45,778 nt of DNA from Thiobacillus sp. 65-29 (GTDB lineage Bacteria; Pseudomonadota; Gammaproteobacteria; Burkholderiales; Thiobacillaceae), in the NCBI GenBank assembly GCA_001899775.1, contig MKWN01000042.1, forward strand, positions 1-45,778. Reading direction: 5' to 3'. Under the pieces are notes generated by a model. It was not told the DNA's origin and made no database searches. It worked only from the letters and a program-made list of their open reading frames with translations. Both the position numbers and the translations under genes were made by a program. Positions 27,858 through 35,986 of the stretch are shown here, in pieces. Within the stretch, counting starts at the first letter, position 1; each line of letters begins with the position of its first letter.

Positions 27858-29180
27858 TCAGCGCATCTCGAACGCCTCCTGATGGAAGCGCAGCCTGCCG
27901 CGTAGCGTGGCGAGCAGGTTTTTCCTGAGCGTGTCGGCGAGGCCACGCGGCCCGCAGAACCACACCTCGGTGGGGCGCGCGGGATCCCTGGCCGCCAGCA
28001 TGGCGTCGGCGCTGAGGATTTCACCCTGGCGAGAACCGTGAACGTGCAGGCGGATGCCGGGCAGCGTTGCGCACAGTGATTCCAGGCGCCCCACAAAGGG
28101 GTCGCTTTCGCGGTCGCGCGTGCAGTAATGCAGGTCGGCGGCGGGAACCTCGTGCGGGCTGTCCTGCAGTGACTCCAGCCAGGCGAGAAAGGGGGTCACG
28201 CCGATGCCGCCGGCAACCCAGATCTGCTGTGCCCGCGCGTTTCGCCGCGCCATGTCGAAGCGGCCATAGGGCCCCTCGACCGACACCGCCTGCCCCGTCT
28301 GCAGCCGGTCGGCGAGGCGGCGGGTGTAGTCGCCCAGCGCCTTGATCTGGAAGGAGACGCTGCGGTCGCCGCGATCCGCGCTCGCGATGGTGAAGGGGTG
28401 CGGACCCTCGCTGCGATCGAAGGTGACGAAGGCGAACTGGCCGGGGCGGTGGCCGCGCCAGCCCGCGTCGAGCTGGCAGCGTACGGTGACGACGTCGGCA
28501 GCCGGATGCTCGATGGCGACGATTCGCCCCGTTACCCGGCGCGAGTGGCCGATGTGGCCGGCGAGCGCGTGGACGCTGCCATACACGCCTGCCGCCAGCA
28601 GCAGGGCGAGCAGCGCGCCCACCGGCTGCGTCCAGTAGCCGGCGGGGGCCAGCAGCACGGCATGAAACGCGACCATCAGATAGAGCACCGGCATCGCCTG
28701 ATGCAAGAAACGCCATGGCCGGTAGGGAAAGCGTTTCCAGAGCGCGATCGCGAGCATTGCGAGCAGGGCGTAGATCGCCCACTCGCCCATGTCTTCGGCG
28801 AGATCGCGCAGGATGTGCAGGAGGCCGGCGCCATCGTCCTTTGGCAGGCGTCCTTCACGCCCGTACACGGCCTTCAGGATATCGTCCGACATTTCGATCA
28901 GCCAGTGCAGGGCGGCGAAGCCGACGGCAAGAATGCCCGCCCACTTGTGCGTCCGGTACATGCGGTCGAGGCCACCCAGCGGTCCCTCGAGCCAGACCGG
29001 CCGCGCCGCCAGCAGCATGGCCAGCGACATCAGGGAAACCGCCAGGAGGCCGCTCAGATAGAGGGCTTCCTGGCGTGCGACCCACGGGGCGCTGCCACCG
29101 GAGACACCGCCCGTGGCCACGATGTCCCACCCCCAGGCGAGGGTGACGAGGGCGATGAGCCCGGCGAGCAAGGTTTTCAT
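27858..29180 (-). CDS. Ferric-reductase-like flavocytochrome b (NOX/FRE family)
   Basis: A 440-aa membrane oxidoreductase that moves electrons from NAD(P)H through FAD and two b hemes across the inner membrane. About six to seven hydrophobic segments make up residues 1-205. Two histidine pairs fit bis-heme ligation: H-x13-H in THKWAGILAVGFAALHW and H-x12-H in LHQAMPVLYLMVAFHA. The soluble half has the FAD motif HPFTIAS, a second flavin motif, and NAD(P) motif GGIGVTPFLAWL, ending with FCGPRGLADTL. The ATG at 29180 begins the first membrane span; a GTG at 29210 overlaps the pepSY stop (GTGA) and would add ten residues. Likely electron partner of the c-type cytochromes next door. Confidence 0.88.
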   Translation of the reverse strand: MKTLLAGLIALVTLAWGWDIVATGGVSGGSAPWVARQEALYLSGLLAVSLMSLAMLLAARPVWLEGPLGGLDRMYRTHKWAGILAVGFAALHWLIEMSDDILKAVYGREGRLPKDDGAGLLHILRDLAEDMGEWAIYALLAMLAIALWKRFPYRPWRFLHQAMPVLYLMVAFHAVLLAPAGYWTQPVGALLALLLAAGVYGSVHALAGHIGHSRRVTGRIVAIEHPAADVVTVRCQLDAGWRGHRPGQFAFVTFDRSEGPHPFTIASADRGDRSVSFQIKALGDYTRRLADRLQTGQAVSVEGPYGRFDMARRNARAQQIWVAGGIGVTPFLAWLESLQDSPHEVPAADLHYCTRDRESDPFVGRLESLCATLPGIRLHVHGSRQGEILSADAMLAARDPARPTEVWFCGPRGLADTLRKNLLATLRGRLRFHQEAFEMR

Positions 29181-29206: not shown

Positions 29207-29635
29207 TCACTTCACCGCCGGCGACGCGGGGGTCGCCTTCTGCGGCAGGTCGTCGCGGCAGCGCCGCTCGTTGCAGTCGGCGGCGTACTGACCGGACCCG
29301 TCGCCGCGGCTGGCGTCCTTGCCGTACCTGGACTCGCGCTTGTTGCGCTCGCGAATCTCGCCGCTCTGCGGGTTGACGTACAGCTTGACGCGTTCGCCCT
29401 GGCGGTTGGTGGCGCGTGCTTCATACGTGCCGTCCTCGCGCTCGATCTTTTCGACGTTGCGATATCCGGCGGCGATGAGCCGGTCGTGCACCTCCACAAT
29501 CGACAGCCAGCGGGCTCCGCTGGTGCTGGCACCGCTGGGGACGTTGTTCTGCGCGAAGCTGGGGGAAAGCAGTATGCCGCCACCGACGAGTCCGGCACCC
29601 AGAGCGAGCGTGGAAAGAAGGGTAATGGTACGCAT
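29207..29635 (-). CDS. Exported PepSY-domain protein
   Basis: A 142-aa periplasmic protein. A signal peptide (TLLSTLALGAGLVGGGILL, then SPSFAQ) precedes a single PepSY-like domain: WLSIVEVHDRLIAAGYRNVEKIERED, then YEARATNRQGERVKLYVNPQSGEI. The C-terminal tail is hydrophilic with two Cys (DCNERRCRDD) that could form a disulfide. AAGGAGA precedes the ATG. PepSY domains are small inhibitory or ligand-interacting modules. One of the two 37-bp operator-like sites lies 63 bp upstream, so this gene probably has its own regulated promoter even though it follows dhc on the same strand. Confidence 0.85.
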   Translation of the reverse strand: MRTITLLSTLALGAGLVGGGILLSPSFAQNNVPSGASTSGARWLSIVEVHDRLIAAGYRNVEKIEREDGTYEARATNRQGERVKLYVNPQSGEIRERNKRESRYGKDASRGDGSGQYAADCNERRCRDDLPQKATPASPAVK

Positions 29636-29698
29636 GATGGAATCTCCTTGTGTTGCGGTCGAAGCGATGACCGTGCATGCATTGTGCGCAAGTGCGCC

Positions 29699-29735
29699 TG
29701 AACCCGTGCTGAAGCCTTCGTTCATCCTGTATTCA
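29699..29735. promoter_or_regulatory. 37-bp composite operator, copy 1 (TGAA-N7-TGAA-N7-TTCA-N7-TTCA)
   Basis: TGAA at 29699 and 29710, TTCA at 29721 and 29732, every element 11 bp from the next. The right half is TTCATCCTGTATTCA. An 11-bp direct repeat is the normal spacing for OmpR/PhoB-type response-regulator dimers, so the site could hold two dimers in inverted orientation. It lies between dhc and the pepSY gene at 29207. Copy 2 at 30746-30782 has the same layout. Confidence 0.75.
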
Positions 29736-29758
29736 TGAACGCTGTGCGGTGAGCCCGG

Positions 29759-30250
29759 TCAATCCTCGTAGAAGCCGCGCTCGGCATCGGCATGGCAGGC
29801 GACGCAGTTGGCTTTCGTGCGCACGTCCTTGTGTTTCCATTCCCATGCGGGAACCGAACGGTGCTTGCTCACCCATTTGGGCAGCTCGGTGATGCGCAGC
29901 GGAGCGGCGTCCGGGGCAAGGCCGCGCAGCAGTTTGCTGCTGTAGCGCTTGCCGCCCGTATCGGCTGCATTGCTCACGAGATAGGCACTGATGCGGGCTG
30001 CGGTTTCGGGGTCGACGCTGGCGTCGTCGCCGAAATGGTTCTTCAGGTCGCCCATCATGCGTTTCCACGAGCGGGCGGGCAGCATCGACGGCGCGAAGGC
30101 GATGTGGCAACTGCCGCATTCTTCCTTGACCACCGGATCGATGACCGGGGGAAAATAATCGTCGCCACCGGCCTGGGCGCGTTCCAGGACGATGCCGCAG
30201 AAGGCGAGCGCAACCAGGCCGAGGGTGAGGGGGCGGTAGGGGATGTTCAT
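29759..30250 (-). CDS. Diheme cytochrome c, DHC family
   Basis: A 163-aa periplasmic protein with a signal peptide (LTLGLVALAFCGIVLERAQA). There are two c-type heme sites: CGSCH (Cys45, His49), followed by the IAFAPSMLPARSW stretch, and CVACH (Cys149, His153) near the C-terminus. This spacing and the PARSWKRMMGDLKNHFG motif are typical of the DHC proteins that donate electrons to SHP cytochromes. AAGGAGC precedes ATG 30250. It follows the shp gene by 29 bp. In other bacteria DHC and SHP occur with a membrane cytochrome b; here the flavocytochrome b at 27858 may fill that role. Confidence 0.9.
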   Translation of the reverse strand: MNIPYRPLTLGLVALAFCGIVLERAQAGGDDYFPPVIDPVVKEECGSCHIAFAPSMLPARSWKRMMGDLKNHFGDDASVDPETAARISAYLVSNAADTGGKRYSSKLLRGLAPDAAPLRITELPKWVSKHRSVPAWEWKHKDVRTKANCVACHADAERGFYED

Positions 30251-30279
30251 GGGCTTGCTCCTTGCGAATTGGGGTATGT

Positions 30280-30696
30280 TCACTGGCTGATCATGTAGCT
30301 GAGCCAGTCGCCTTTTTCCTGCGCCGTGCAGGCGCGTCCGAGAACCTCGTTGCAGTTGCGCTTGAACCATTTTTCGACCTTCGCCGGATCGGTGTAGCGT
30401 TGCGGCGTCACCGACACGGCCACGGCTTCGATGGCCTTCCCGGTCAGGGTGCGGCCGGCGCCACGCGTGTTCTCGCTGTGGCAGGTCGTGCAGGCTGGCG
30501 TGTCCGGCTTGCCGCCGGCAAACTTCTGGGTGTGCAGGGTCTTGCCGCGCGCGGCGGAAAATCCGGAGAACGCTGGCGTCTCCTTGCGGGCTGCGGTAGC
30601 GTATTGCGCCAGCAGGTCGTCGCGTGGGCCGGCGAAGGACGACACCGGAACGGTCAGCGCGGCGATGACAAGAAGTGCGACGAGGTTTTGCTGCAT
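30280..30696 (-). CDS. SHP-type high-spin cytochrome c (DUF1924, sphaeroides heme protein family)
   Basis: A 138-aa periplasmic monoheme cytochrome with a signal peptide ending SSFAG. The heme site is CTTCH (Cys69, Cys72, His73) in the context GGKPDTPACTTCH. The C-terminal RNCNEVLGRACT (Asn114, Cys115, Cys123) matches the part of SHP where an unusual Asn is the sixth heme ligand and two Cys form a disulfide. Members bind O2 and NO transiently and accept electrons from DHC. AAGGAGA lies 6 nt before ATG 30696. It is the first gene of the minus-strand operon, with copy 2 of the composite operator 49 bp upstream. Confidence 0.9.
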   Translation of the reverse strand: MQQNLVALLVIAALTVPVSSFAGPRDDLLAQYATAARKETPAFSGFSAARGKTLHTQKFAGGKPDTPACTTCHSENTRGAGRTLTGKAIEAVAVSVTPQRYTDPAKVEKWFKRNCNEVLGRACTAQEKGDWLSYMISQ

Positions 30697-30745
30697 GGTT
30701 TTCTCCTTCCGGGTGGCGTGTGAGTGCACTTTGCGCGCCGCGAAC

Positions 30746-30782
30746 TGAACAGAAGGTGAATTCCCCGTTCATCCTGCATTCA
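30746..30782. promoter_or_regulatory. 37-bp composite operator, copy 2, between shp and pepSY-RR-HK
   Basis: TGAA at 30746 and 30757, TTCA at 30768 and 30779; all intervals are 11 bp, as in copy 1. The right half TTCATCCTGCATTCA differs from copy 1 by one base. The site is centred in the divergent region: 49 bp to the shp ATG and 49 bp to the pepSY ATG. A -10-like TAAAAC (30795-30800) on the plus strand would place the last repeat over the -35 region, as expected for activation. Likely regulator: the adjacent OmpR-type protein. Confidence 0.78.
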
Positions 30783-30831
30783 GGATCGGGGCGGTAAAAC
30801 AAGCTGTGAATCACCGCTTGTGGAGATGGCG

Positions 30832-31194
30832 ATGTCAGGCACGAAAACCCTGAAAAACGTATACCTCGCGTGGAGTGCCGCGCTGCTCGCGGGGCTGCTG
30901 CACGTCGGGAGCGGCTGGGCTGGCGACACGCACGACCATGACCGTGCCCGCCAGGCGCTCGAATCCGGCGAGATCCTGCCCTTGCGCACGATCCTGGAAC
31001 GCGTCGAGCGCGACTATCCGGGACAGGTCATGGAGGTTGAACTGGACCGCGAGGACGGGCGCTGGCGCTATGAGATCAAGCTCCTGCGCCGGGACGGCGC
31101 GCTGGTCAAGCTTGTGCTCGACGCGCGCGACGGCAGGCAACTGCGGATCAAGGGCCCCAAGGACAAGGGCGGCAACCCCGGAGCGCCCCGCTGA
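30832..31194 (+). CDS. Exported PepSY-domain protein heading a two-component operon
   Basis: A 120-aa protein with a signal peptide or N-terminal anchor (NVYLAWSAALLAGLLHVGSGWAG), a histidine-rich DTHDHD start to the mature part, and one PepSY domain: ARQALESGEILPLRTILERVERDY, then VMEVELDREDGRWRYEIKLL, then LVLDARDGRQL. ATG 30832 has GGAG 6 nt upstream; GTG 30820 and ATG 30826 are also in frame. Its stop overlaps the response-regulator start (TGATG). PepSY proteins cotranscribed with PhoPQ/QseBC-like pairs are common and may modulate the sensor kinase. Confidence 0.88.
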   Translation: MSGTKTLKNVYLAWSAALLAGLLHVGSGWAGDTHDHDRARQALESGEILPLRTILERVERDYPGQVMEVELDREDGRWRYEIKLLRRDGALVKLVLDARDGRQLRIKGPKDKGGNPGAPR

Positions 31195-31856
31195 TGCGCA
31201 TCCTGGTGGTGGAAGATGAACCGACGCTGTGCGAACAACTCGCCGCGGGCGTGCGCGAGGCTGGTTATGCGGTCGATGTCGCGCGCAATGGCCTCGATGC
31301 CCATTTCATGGGCGATGCCGAGCCCTTCGACGCCGTCGTTCTCGATCTCGGCCTGCCGCAGATGGACGGTCTTACGGTACTGAAGAAGTGGCGCGCCGCG
31401 GGGCGCGTCATGCCGGTGCTGATCCTCACCGCGCGCGACAACTGGCATGAGAAGGTCGCCGGCATCGATGCCGGTGCCGACGATTACCTCACCAAGCCCT
31501 TCCACATGGAAGAGTTGCTGGCGCGCCTGCGCGCGCTGATCCGCCGCGCCGGCGGTCATGCCAGCGCGGAACTGGTGTGCGGTCCGCTGACGCTGGATAC
31601 CCGCAGCAACCGCGTCACGGTGGCGGGGCGGGCGCTGGCGTTGACCAGCCACGAATACCGGGTGCTGGCGTACCTCATGCATCATCCCGGCGAGGCGGTG
31701 TCGCGCAGCGATCTGGTCGAGCACATCTACGCGCAGGATTTCGATCGCGACTCGAATACCGTCGAGGTTTTCATCGGCCGTCTGCGCAAGAAACTGCCGC
31801 CGGGGCTGATCGAAACCGTGCGCGGCATGGGCTACCGCCTCGTCAGCCCGCAATGA
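31194..31856 (+). CDS. OmpR-family response regulator (PhoP/QseB-like)
   Basis: A 220-aa regulator. The receiver domain has acidic residues in VVEDEP, phosphoacceptor Asp51 (VVLDLGLP), the switch Thr in LTARDNWHEKV, and Lys101 (YLTKPF). The C-terminal winged helix (about 125-220) has LTSHEYRVLAYLMHHPGEAVSR and the recognition helix NTVEVFIGRLRKKL. It should bind 11-bp-spaced direct repeats as a phosphorylated dimer; the two 37-bp sites nearby fit. It overlaps the pepSY stop by one base and the kinase start by four. Confidence 0.93.
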   Translation: MRILVVEDEPTLCEQLAAGVREAGYAVDVARNGLDAHFMGDAEPFDAVVLDLGLPQMDGLTVLKKWRAAGRVMPVLILTARDNWHEKVAGIDAGADDYLTKPFHMEELLARLRALIRRAGGHASAELVCGPLTLDTRSNRVTVAGRALALTSHEYRVLAYLMHHPGEAVSRSDLVEHIYAQDFDRDSNTVEVFIGRLRKKLPPGLIETVRGMGYRLVSPQ

Positions 31857-33223
31857 TCCCGGCCACCCTGCGCGGTTCGCTGCGATTCCGGCTGCTGCTG
31901 GGTACGCTGTTCTGGATTGCCGCGTCGCTCGTGGTCGCCGCCTGGGGGCTGGGCAACCTGTTTCGCCAGCATGTGGAGTCGCAGTTTCACGCGCAGTTGA
32001 AAACCCATCTGGACCAGTTGACCGCCCAGTTGGCGCTCGATGACGCGGGTCGGCCGACGCTGGCGACGTCGCTCAGCGACCCCCGCTTCAACAGGCCCCT
32101 TGGTGGTCTCTACTGGCAGATCGACCGTCTTGCGGGAACCGGCGCCCCGGCGGCCCCTGCGGTGATGCGTTCGCGTTCCCTGTGGGATCAGGTGTTGCGC
32201 GTTCCGGCCGACACGCCCGCCACCGGGGACGTCCACCAGCACCGGATCGTCGGCCCGGACGGTGCCATGCTGGGCATGGTGGAACGCTCCGTCACGATCA
32301 ATGCGCAGCGCCTGCGGCTGATCGTCGGCGCCGATGAAAACCTGATGCGTGAACCGGTGACGCGCTTCAACGAGGAGCTGTGGCTGGCGCTGGGTCTGCT
32401 GGGCCTCGGCCTGGCACTGGCGGCCCTGGTGCAGGTCTTTGTCGGGCTGGCCCCCTTGCGGAAGCTGCGCGACGCGCTCGGACGTGTGCGTAGCGGCGAA
32501 ACCCAGCGCATGGAGGGCGATTTTCCGGTCGAGATCATGCCGCTGGTCGGGGAATTCAACACGGTTCTCGCGCAAAACGCGGACGTCGTCGAGCGCGCCC
32601 GCACGCAGGCGGGCAATCTTGCCCACGCGCTGAAGACACCCCTGAGCGTGCTTGCCAATGCGGCCGCGGGCACTGACGATGCGCTGGCGCGGCTGGTGGC
32701 GAGCCAGGTCGAGAGTGCGCGCAAGCAGGTGGATTACCACCTGAGCCGGGCACAGGCGGCCGCTACGGCGCGTCTGCCCGGTGTGCGCACCGGGGTCGGC
32801 CCGGTCGTCGACGGCCTGCTCCGCGCCATGCGGCGCATTCATGCCGAGCGCAATCTTGACCTGCGGGTGCGGCCGATTCCGGCGAACCTGGCGTTTCGCG
32901 GCGAGGAGCAGGACTTGCAGGAAATGCTTGGCAACCTGCTGGACAACGCCTGCAAATGGGCGGCAGGTCGCGTCGAGATCGGCGCCGGCATCGAAGACGA
33001 CCGCCTCGTCATCCGTGTCGACGACGACGGCAAGGGCATCGTCGCCGCGCAGCGACAGGCCACCCTGCGTCGCGGCGTGCGGGCCGACGAGCAGGTTCCC
33101 GGCAGTGGACTGGGGCTCGCCATCGTCGATGACCTGGCACGCATGTATGGCGGTGCGATCGTGCTGGCGGATTCACCGCTGGGTGGATTGCAGGCGATCC
33201 TGACGCTTCCTGCCGTGCCGTAG
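31853..33223 (+). CDS. Sensor histidine kinase (PhoQ-like)
   Basis: A 456-aa inner-membrane kinase. Membrane spans at about 12-34 and 176-198 bracket a periplasmic sensor of about 140 residues; a HAMP-like segment follows (LAPLRKLRDALGRVRSGE). The phosphoacceptor is His258 in AHALKTPLSVL, the PhoQ-type H-box in which the usual Glu is missing. ATP-binding boxes are NLLDNACKWA (N), DDDGKGI (G1) and GSGLGLAIVDDL (G2). The ATG overlaps the regulator stop (ATGA). The signal is unknown; redox state or NO/O2 would suit the neighbouring cytochromes, by inference. Confidence 0.92.
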   Translation: MIPATLRGSLRFRLLLGTLFWIAASLVVAAWGLGNLFRQHVESQFHAQLKTHLDQLTAQLALDDAGRPTLATSLSDPRFNRPLGGLYWQIDRLAGTGAPAAPAVMRSRSLWDQVLRVPADTPATGDVHQHRIVGPDGAMLGMVERSVTINAQRLRLIVGADENLMREPVTRFNEELWLALGLLGLGLALAALVQVFVGLAPLRKLRDALGRVRSGETQRMEGDFPVEIMPLVGEFNTVLAQNADVVERARTQAGNLAHALKTPLSVLANAAAGTDDALARLVASQVESARKQVDYHLSRAQAAATARLPGVRTGVGPVVDGLLRAMRRIHAERNLDLRVRPIPANLAFRGEEQDLQEMLGNLLDNACKWAAGRVEIGAGIEDDRLVIRVDDDGKGIVAAQRQATLRRGVRADEQVPGSGLGLAIVDDLARMYGGAIVLADSPLGGLQAILTLPAVP

Positions 33224-33247: not shown

Positions 33248-34423
<1,176 letters not shown>

Positions 34424-34424
<1 letters not shown>

Positions 34425-35986
34425 CATACCTGCTGGTCGACGAAGACGTTGAATTCGACGAGATCGAAGGCCGCGGTGTGTTCCAGGCAGCGTTCGAAGG
34501 TCAGCAGGTACTGGCGTGGCGGATGCCAGACCTCGGCGTCCAGGCCCTTGCTGTAGAGGTGGCGCGGCAGAAGCAGGCGATCGCCCTGTCTGAGTGCGGC
34601 GATGCCCGGCAGAAACAGCGCGGGCTCGGCGGAAGCCTTGCGCCGTCCGCGCAGCGGGCGCACCCAGACCGGCTGCACGTTGGGAGACAGGCGCTCGATG
34701 CCGAGTTCGACCTGGCGTGCGTCGCGCATGCGGATCCAGCGGATCGCGCCGACGGACCAGTCGCCGTTGACCGCGGTGGGCCGCAGCGCCACCGGATCGC
34801 CCACCTTCAGGTTGAGCGGGGCATCGGGCATGCCACTGAGCGCGAGCCCGGACGCGCTGTCGTTGACGACCGTCCAGGTGCTGCTGTTGACCGATGGGGC
34901 AAGGGGCAGGCTGGTGTCGCCGATGGCGAGGTCGGCCTCGGCGGCAGGATCGTGCTGCGCCTGCTCGAGCAGGCGATGGGTGGCGCTCACGCCGGCGACG
35001 AGTTCCACGCTGCTGCCGGGCGCCGCATGCCGTTTGAATTCGCGGCGCGCACCCGGCCCCCAGAGGCGGGCGAGGCGCTTGATCAGGGTGAGGCAGAGTC
35101 TGCCGTCGAGATGCGCGGGCAGGCCGACGCTGGCGGGTGTCGCGTCGGCGCGCAGGCGCAGGGCGACGTCGCGCAGGTGGCGGCACAGGCCGTCGGTGTC
35201 GAGCCACAGCGTGGAATCGTGCAGCGTGCCGGCGAGGTGATGCGGTGGTACGTCGCCGTCGACCGGGATGGCGAAGCCGGCACGTGCGTCGGCCGGAGTC
35301 GGACCGAGCGCGGTACGATGCACGAAGCTGCGGATGATCTGCCGGGCGTGCAGGATTTCGGTCGGACTCATGCGCGGCGGATCGGCGAGCGCAAGGAGCA
35401 GGGCCTGGCGGTAGGCGGTTTCCAGTGCGGGTGTCGTGTCGCTGGCGCGGCTTTCGATCTGCCTTGCGCGCGCGAAACGGTACACACCATGCATCTCCGC
35501 CCACAGCTCGGCCGGCGTCACGACGTAGGTGAGGTGGCACGCCGCCTGCACGTCGTGAAGCGCGGCAAGCAGGCAGGACGCGGCCTCGGCGAGGTGCAGC
35601 GCATGCGCGGCGCGCGCGCTGTCGTCGATCAGCGTGCGCAAAGCCTGCTTGTAGCCGATGGCATGCTCGTTGTGCAGTTCGCGCAGCAGCACGCCGATCT
35701 GGCGCTGCTGCTGGCGGGGCGGCACACCCGATTCGAGCAGCAGCGCTTCCAGGCTGCCGGCGGCGCGCGCGACCACCGGGCGGTACAGGGCGAGCAGCGC
35801 GAGTCGCGCCTCGCTGGCGAGCGGCCGGCGGTTGAGGGCGTACAGGGCCATCGCCAACTGCTGCGCGGTGTCGACGGGGCTGGCGAAGGGCAGGCGTTCG
35901 AGCCAGTCCGCGGTCTCGCGCGGACGCGTCTCGACCTTGCCGGGCTGCTGCGGGATGTCGGTGCGGGGAACGCTCAGGTCAAGCAT
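34424..35986 (-). CDS. Conserved 520-aa cytoplasmic protein with degenerate PilZ-like C-terminal domain
   Basis: I do not recognise a named family. Residues 1-290 are helical and Leu/Ala-rich with no membrane span or signal peptide. In the C-terminal half, RREFKRHAAPGSSVEL provides an RxxxR-type pattern, and VVNDSASGLALSGM an NxSxxG pattern, with about 75 residues between them instead of the usual 20-30. These resemble the two c-di-GMP-contact motifs of PilZ. A beta-rich tail follows (VGDPVALRP, WSVGAIRWIRMRDARQVELGIERL). It may therefore be a c-di-GMP receptor or a structural relative. It lies 6 bp after purU on the same strand; the MITE-like element abuts its stop codon. Confidence 0.7.

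Follow-up and report, generated by a model that had tools for sequence, protein, structure and literature searches.

A conserved four-part site beside the SHP cytochrome genes of Thiobacillus is the probable operator of an adjacent PepSY-linked OmpR-type regulator

The window, a stretch of 45,778 nucleotides from Thiobacillus sp. 65-29, contains two 37-bp sites of the form TGAA-N7-TGAA-N7-TTCA-N7-TTCA, and both are very probably docking sites of the OmpR-type response regulator (RR) that is encoded next to them. We found that the sites are conserved, that they have a promoter-like geometry, that one-way promoters retain the opposed box and that the sites track the genes for RR and its sensor kinase (HK) from genome to genome. 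The reading that we hold with considerable confidence is that the sites are the operators of the RR encoded at 31194, which would use them for class II activation of three operons, with the opposed box boosting occupancy. A first-pass annotation of this DNA had already described the two sites; its observation is confirmed and was, if anything, understated. Beyond it lie the mirror-symmetric promoter geometry, the presence of the four-part site at one-way promoters and the single box that is found at distant homologues.

The pattern occurs at exactly two places in the window when up to three mismatches are allowed, each time with none, and the same two sites are the only ones in the assembly (2,896,222 bases, 61 contigs) at up to two mismatches. 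The reversed pattern, used as a control over the whole assembly, gave no match at up to two mismatches. Shuffled versions of the window contained on average 0.02 matches, and two matches were reached in 0 of 100 shuffles, so the pattern is far above chance in this genome. The right halves of copy 1 and copy 2 (TTCATCCTGTATTCA and TTCATCCTGCATTCA) differ by one base, while the left halves have in common TGAAC and the second core, and the letters thus agree with the annotation on the shared four-part pattern and on the likeness of its halves. The distance from copy 2 is 49 bp both to the SHP start and to the pepSY1 ATG at 30832, the symmetry that had been claimed for it when this start is used (ATG 30826 and GTG 30820 are alternatives). 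Copy 1 is 63 bp from the pepSY2 start and 23 bp past the end of dhc, and is therefore a one-way site. Coordinates are collected in Table 1.

Table 1. Features of the window around the two four-part sites.
Feature	Position	Strand	Details
-10-like hexamer CACAAT for pepSY2-flavocytochrome	29681..29686	-	12 nt outside copy 1; p=0.002
Operator copy 1 (candidate)	29699..29735		TGAA 29699-29702, TGAA 29710-29713, TTCA 29721-29724, TTCA 29732-29735; one-way site, dhc end / pepSY2 start; 14 equivalents in relatives
-10-like hexamer CAAAGT for shp-dhc	30728..30733	-	12 nt outside copy 2; p<=0.004
Operator copy 2 (candidate)	30746..30782		TGAA 30746-30749, TGAA 30757-30760, TTCA 30768-30771, TTCA 30779-30782; divergent site, shp / pepSY1; kept upstream of shp in relatives
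-10-like hexamer TAAAAC for pepSY1-RR-HK	30795..30800	+	12 nt outside copy 2, other side; p=0.004
Flavocytochrome: ferric-reductase-like membrane domain and FAD-binding domain	27858..29180	-	PF01794, PF08022; start picked by eye
pepSY2: PepSY_2-domain protein, N-terminus looks exported	29207..29635	-	PF13670
dhc: dihaem cytochrome c	29759..30250	-	PF09626
shp: SHP-type cytochrome c (DUF1924)	30280..30696	-	PF09086
pepSY1: small PepSY protein, Orf1 position of Meyer et al. 2010, DbfQ-like	30832..31194	+	PF03413
RR: OmpR/PmrA-type response regulator, candidate ligand of both sites	31194..31856	+	Pfam matches, co-occurrence
HK: sensor kinase with GGLYWQ and RSRSLWD	31853..33223	+	translation; Pfam ATPase domain

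The genes around the sites belong to known families; the literature is cited here by accession number, from excerpts of the papers. HK has the motifs of the SK1 kinases of SHP clusters, which are marked by variants of SGVYWQ and RSRSLWD within the periplasmic domain (PMC2909971). With a small PepSY protein and an OmpR-type RR encoded directly before it, it forms a PepSY-RR-HK module of the DbfQRS-like type, as judged by Pfam matches and gene order. The SHP/DHC cytochrome operon consists of SHP, a dihaem cytochrome c and a membrane cytochrome b, and SHP has been described as a c-type haem protein that binds oxygen, no other being known to do so (PMC2909971). The cluster in the window has the DUF1924 protein and DHC; its membrane partner is the ferric-reductase-like flavocytochrome, at most a candidate counterpart of that cytochrome b. 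Elsewhere in the window, at 34186-34426, about 240 bp are bounded by terminal inverted repeats of about 20 bp (CTAAAAACCGCAGTT and AACTGCGGTTTTTAG, read by eye). A genome-wide search gave 46 matches to this stretch, of which about 14, counting the element itself, are near full length (79-100% identity), which marks it as a repeated, MITE-like element.

Relatives were drawn from genome contigs of Thiobacillus, Rhodocyclaceae, Burkholderiales and others as the best 80 of 525 SHP relatives, and they are not independent of one another in the counts that follow. The annotation had predicted that the pattern would recur upstream of orthologous clusters, and it does: in 74 cases shp is immediately preceded by a site with no more than one mismatch (68 are perfect), and 14 further sites occupy the gap that separates dhc from pepSY2 or the flavocytochrome. 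At two loci (L017, L023) the site adjoins pepSY1, which other genes separate from shp. The genomes with a site include that of Dechloromonas agitata (L044), which is available in culture. As a control on the bias of a full-pattern search, the promoter-side box was sought alone, as TTCA-N7-TTCA (one mismatch allowed) with a -10-like hexamer 12 nt beyond it, and the opposed box was located afterwards. The set comprised 81 shp genes in 80 loci, and 77 of the 79 with at least 130 bp upstream have the promoter-side box and hexamer. The opposed box TGAA-N7-TGAA stands at exactly -22 in 74 of these 77 promoters, and no other offset was best in any shp promoter when offsets from -70 to -15 were scanned. 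The exceptions are two single boxes, at L026 and at L053 (with no RR in its flanks), and L038, which has two mismatches in its opposed box. On the pepSY1 side 58 of 74 promoters passed the box and hexamer test and 16 failed; the opposed box is at -22 in 57 of the 58, and L034 is without any. The shp-side and pepSY1-side counts are largely the same sites viewed from both sides. When spacers of 4 to 11 were tried for exact TTCA pairs with a -10-like hexamer 12 nt further on, all 75 pairs found had a spacer of 7. Two direct-repeat half-sites one helical turn apart, TTCA-N7-TTCA, have the form expected of an OmpR/PhoB-family box.

Alignment of 56 nonredundant intergenic regions on the site revealed two more conserved blocks, each 13 to 18 bases beyond one end of it and in exact mirror symmetry: toward shp the block is CATAGT, toward pepSY1 it is TAWAA (read outward). 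Each direct repeat thus ends 12 nt before its -10. The best hexamer was at +13 in 52/56 regions on the shp side and in 43/56 on the pepSY1 side, which are in-sample figures; because these divergent sites also served to train the -10 matrix, the independent tests are confined to the window and the one-way sites. At the 14 one-way sites in relatives a -10 is present on the gene side in every case (p<=0.012), and on the other side none of the 14 has one at p<0.02 (lowest p 0.061). In the window, three equally spaced -10-like elements face shp-dhc, pepSY2-flavocytochrome and pepSY1-RR-HK, the small regulon that had been proposed for the sites; the mirror position of copy 1 (29748-29753, GGTGAG) has no -10-like hexamer (p=0.638). 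The same spacing is found at the architecture I promoters of PhoP, where a direct box ends 12 nt before the -10 and class II activation is predicted (PMC3335776). A strict single-box pattern had no match in the window's own genome, where it missed the window's own sites too. A looser one found only the window sites that face shp and pepSY2 and not the pepSY1 side, where the hexamer ends in C.

The one-way sites bear on the purpose of the four-part layout. Among 78 gaps between dhc and the next gene, the promoter-side box sought alone is present in 14 of the 27 gaps of at least 60 bp and in none of the 51 shorter ones, and all 14 boxed gaps have the opposed box too (12 perfect, 2 with one mismatch). 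The box-plus-hexamer test found no box in 13 of the 27 longer gaps, one of which (L037) has a quartet with two mismatches. Since one-way sites keep four cores where only one hexamer is needed, the idea that the quartet is merely a compromise between divergent promoters is weakened; in the clear cases the opposed box persists with no second promoter needing it.

Three other genomes of the genus (L100-L102) have a further exact site with a single -10. Below it is a third operon, which encodes a 102-aa protein, a 2Fe-2S/FAD/NAD reductase, a cytochrome b-like protein (no Pfam match; named by eye) and a multihaem cytochrome c. In several SHP clusters (L018, L027, L028, L029, L031, L050, L078) the flavocytochrome is followed directly by relatives of this operon, and this makes it a plausible member of the regulon that keeps its own operator when separated. 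It was sought in the window's own genome via the cytochrome b-like protein and no match was obtained, an empty search that proves little. At L017 (1600-5900) and L023 (420-5850) a cation-efflux gene (311 aa), a zinc-ribbon gene (93 aa) and the last three genes of the third operon lie between two separate sites; Pfam support for the cation-efflux and zinc-ribbon genes was obtained for L017. The second site at these loci has a left -10-like hexamer (p=0.013 and 0.001, respectively), though no leftward gene was recognised. The presence of a cation-efflux gene between the operators is in line with the link between CzcD and SHP that has been reported (PMC2909971). Exact operators at L196 and L198 (genomes G460 and G504) stand beside pepSY2-like genes, away from pepSY1-RR-HK, and point to further candidate regulon members.

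The distribution of the site among genomes follows that of the kinase. HK has a patchy distribution: at E<=1e-70, 11 of 250 genomes of the order carry it. Each of the 11 contains at least one site with no more than two mismatches, and in 10 of them one such site is beside the module. An exact site occurs in 7/11 HK-positive versus 2/239 HK-negative genomes (Fisher p=1e-9). At up to one mismatch the figures are 10/11 and 15/239, with 2/250 for the reversed control. In the HK-positive genome G460 the contig extends for about 460 bp before the pepSY1 match, and no site was found in this stretch with up to two mismatches allowed; the exact site of G460 is on another contig, beside a pepSY2 gene. 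Both HK-negative genomes with an exact site seem to owe it to repeats. Genome G620 contains five similar palindromes, TGAACG...CTGAA...TTCAG...CGTTCA or near it, an apparently unrelated repeat family, and the exact HK-negative match in G635 resembles the neisserial DNA uptake sequence. In a sample of the class the exact site was found in 4/369 genomes, the window's own included, and the control in 0/369. Genome G336 has pepSY1-RR-HK, then the site, then pepSY2-flavocytochrome, with shp absent, and in G266 the site is about 1 kb from a more distant RR (51%) and HK (31%). An exact operator is also seen in G005 (L103, 2574-2610), with -10-like hexamers on both sides and flanking genes without a Pfam match; this genome is 62% complete, and no such HK was found in it at E<=1e-50.

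That the site follows SHP and not the regulator was considered and rejected. Two loci have shp without the module in the examined flanks, one with a single box (L053) and one with none (L068); a second shp at L066 has no box; and five loci (L104, L118, L120, L122, L125) have the module and the site with no shp match in the examined stretch. The second shp-dhc pair at L066 (8975-9782), a more distant one, lacks an operator box upstream, and the RR that follows it is a different one. HK presence predicts the site, and the site stays with the module where shp is unseen, both of which favour the adjacent OmpR-type regulator that the annotation had named as the natural candidate.

More distant homologues of the regulator have a simpler site. 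HK (E<=1e-65) is present in 103 of 398 genomes in a sample of the phylum. We examined the 27 loci of the best non-own matches, 23 of which have a full RR (62-70% identical) and at least 300 bp upstream; L254 was left out of the box count because it holds an RR fragment only. An exact single sense TTCA-N7-TTCA is present upstream of RR at 19 of the 23 and an antisense one at none, while nine other spacers from 3 to 12 gave 2 together at the same loci. Because many of these loci come from a shared genus or family, the number of independent cases is below 23. The four-box site was not found on either strand in the 25 of 27 phylum-sample loci that were scored, and its best match had at least four mismatches in all 25. 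At class-level RR loci the box occurs in 7/40 distant and 3/14 nearer cases. A generic scan for inverted four-box sites, using an approximately dinucleotide-preserving shuffle, reached p<=0.05 in 10 of 56 class-level RR loci: 9/16 closer ones (L104, L105, L182-L195) and 1/40 distant ones, the sole distant pass (L227) looking like a GC hairpin. In some class-level relatives an inverted layout persists whose cores have drifted, for example to TGAC or TAAC. Most simply, the single box would be the more widespread form and the opposed pair an elaboration of it. A comparison of the recognition helices of the regulators is suggestive only.

These observations suggest how the sites may operate. Each would consist of two TTCA-N7-TTCA dimer boxes that point outward from a shared dyad in one 11-bp register, and a tandem dimer of phosphorylated RR would occupy each of the outward direct repeats. 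Because the promoter-nearest box ends 12 nt before the -10, RR would cover the -35 position, acting as a class II activator, and it is from this promoter geometry that we infer activation rather than repression. The opposed box upstream would stabilise RR or boost its occupancy, most simply through a cooperative dimer-of-dimers across the dyad; such cooperativity is suggested by the opposed offset, which is invariant and equal to two helical turns and so favours a contact across the dyad. The symmetry of copy 2 would serve two divergent promoters, those of shp-dhc and pepSY1-RR-HK, and since the latter is RR's own operon the regulator would be autoregulated. Copy 1 would serve one promoter, that of pepSY2-flavocytochrome, and the PepSY proteins may modulate HK in the way that DbfQ modulates DbfS.

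Other explanations have been weighed against this one. Chance, or a recent duplication of a block of DNA, can be set aside almost completely: although the right halves of the copies are one base apart, the shuffles and the genome-wide uniqueness of the sites argue against it, the left halves differ, and the cores are kept in the 56 aligned regions, in agreement with the annotation, where most flanking columns are not. It is very improbable that a transcription factor other than the adjacent RR binds the sites. L035 and G005 do have a site with the module absent from the examined stretch; set against this are the genome-wide association with HK, the loci where the site accompanies the module with shp unseen, the same box upstream of more distant RR homologues and the OmpR-family geometry of the box itself. 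From these we infer that the binding protein is the adjacent RR.

Two further alternatives concern the opposed box. The sites might be two independent boxes set back to back, one for each divergent promoter, with the dyad an accident of packing. At the divergent loci each box does have a -10 of its own, 12 nt away, a single box suffices for distant homologues, and there are single-box promoters at L026, L034 and L053; yet the opposed box is kept without its own -10 in 14/14 sites of the dhc/pepSY2 type, in 3/3 third-operon sites and in copy 1, and its offset is -22 wherever it was found (74 shp and 57 pepSY1 promoters, largely the same sites), so we regard independence of the boxes as rather unlikely. 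Alternatively, the opposed box could be an accessory site that helps RNA polymerase or displaces a silencer with no contact between dimers. The precedents are PhoP promoters of architecture II: mutation of the reverse upstream box at ybjX cut expression more than 8-fold, and the upstream box at virK counters H-NS (PMC3335776). The PhoP upstream boxes vary in distance and orientation (PMC3335776), whereas the offset here is invariant at two helical turns, and an accessory role, although a serious contender, seems to us unlikely on balance. The cooperative operator of RR is thus the reading that we prefer. A bolder form of it, which we offer tentatively and would back with less than even confidence, is that a PepSY-linked RR subfamily acts as an obligate dimer-of-dimers on a palindromic four-box operator, with contact over the dyad, a direction-neutral platform that would fire any correctly spaced -10 to its left or right and that genes would join by moving alongside. 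Such an operator may have arisen by inverted doubling of a single box, its cores drifting (TGAC, TAAC) while the architecture stayed.

Our findings provide a concrete candidate operator and regulon for the widespread SK1/Orf1 sensor and for SHP. In the proposed geometry two tandem OmpR-family dimers would lock head to head at an invariant offset, making the operator a natural test case for cooperation, and the pattern is specific enough to pick candidate regulon members from raw genomes, as in the case of the third electron-transfer operon that it found in three genomes of the genus. No description of the operator was found among the literature matches listed, which covered few subscription papers, and one may exist in print. 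FeuN-FeuP-FeuQ of rhizobia may be an alphaproteobacterial counterpart system.

Several known systems resemble parts of the arrangement. The Orf1/RR/SK1 and SHP operons of Meyer et al. involve the same gene families, and a divergent promoter was suspected there from gene order; the excerpts of that paper on SHP gene clusters describe no operator (PMC2909971). DbfQ-DbfR-DbfS of Vibrio cholerae likewise has PepSY, RR and HK encoded together, with positive autoregulation suggested (PMC12714742, PMC7768729), and DbfQ binds the sensory domain of DbfS and shifts the kinase toward phosphatase activity (PMC12714742); no binding motif, consensus or direct repeat was found in the excerpts of these texts (PMC12714742, PMC7768729). 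AgrR/CopR sites belong to the OmpR family and have dyad symmetry, some with extra flanking half-sites, but their core is a 16-bp inverted repeat (6-4-6) and not two outward direct-repeat pairs (PMC7380067); the sites studied here have central opposed cores TGAA-N7-TTCA, with outer cores at 11-bp steps. The multi-repeat sites of ArcA share 11-bp centre-to-centre repeats and more than two elements, but there the extra elements are direct repeats and the architecture varies between sites (PMC3798270). Salmonella PhoP architectures I and II have a direct-repeat box toward the -10 that ends 12 nt before it, and some PhoP promoters add an upstream box, which is reverse in ybjX; the PhoP core is GTTTA rather than the GTTCA seen here, the upstream box varies in place and orientation, and the excerpts describe no invariant contiguous two-box dyad serving both directions (PMC3335776). 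In BqsR/CarR of Pseudomonas aeruginosa, which binds TTAAG-N6-TTAAG, the 11-bp direct repeat, the essential spacer length and a four-pentamer promoter are all alike (PMC4682146), as is the PepSY-associated two-component module (PMC12714742). The core differs, and the clusters there are repeated pentamers with the same 6-bp spacing; reversal of the upstream pentamer abolished expression (PMC4682146).
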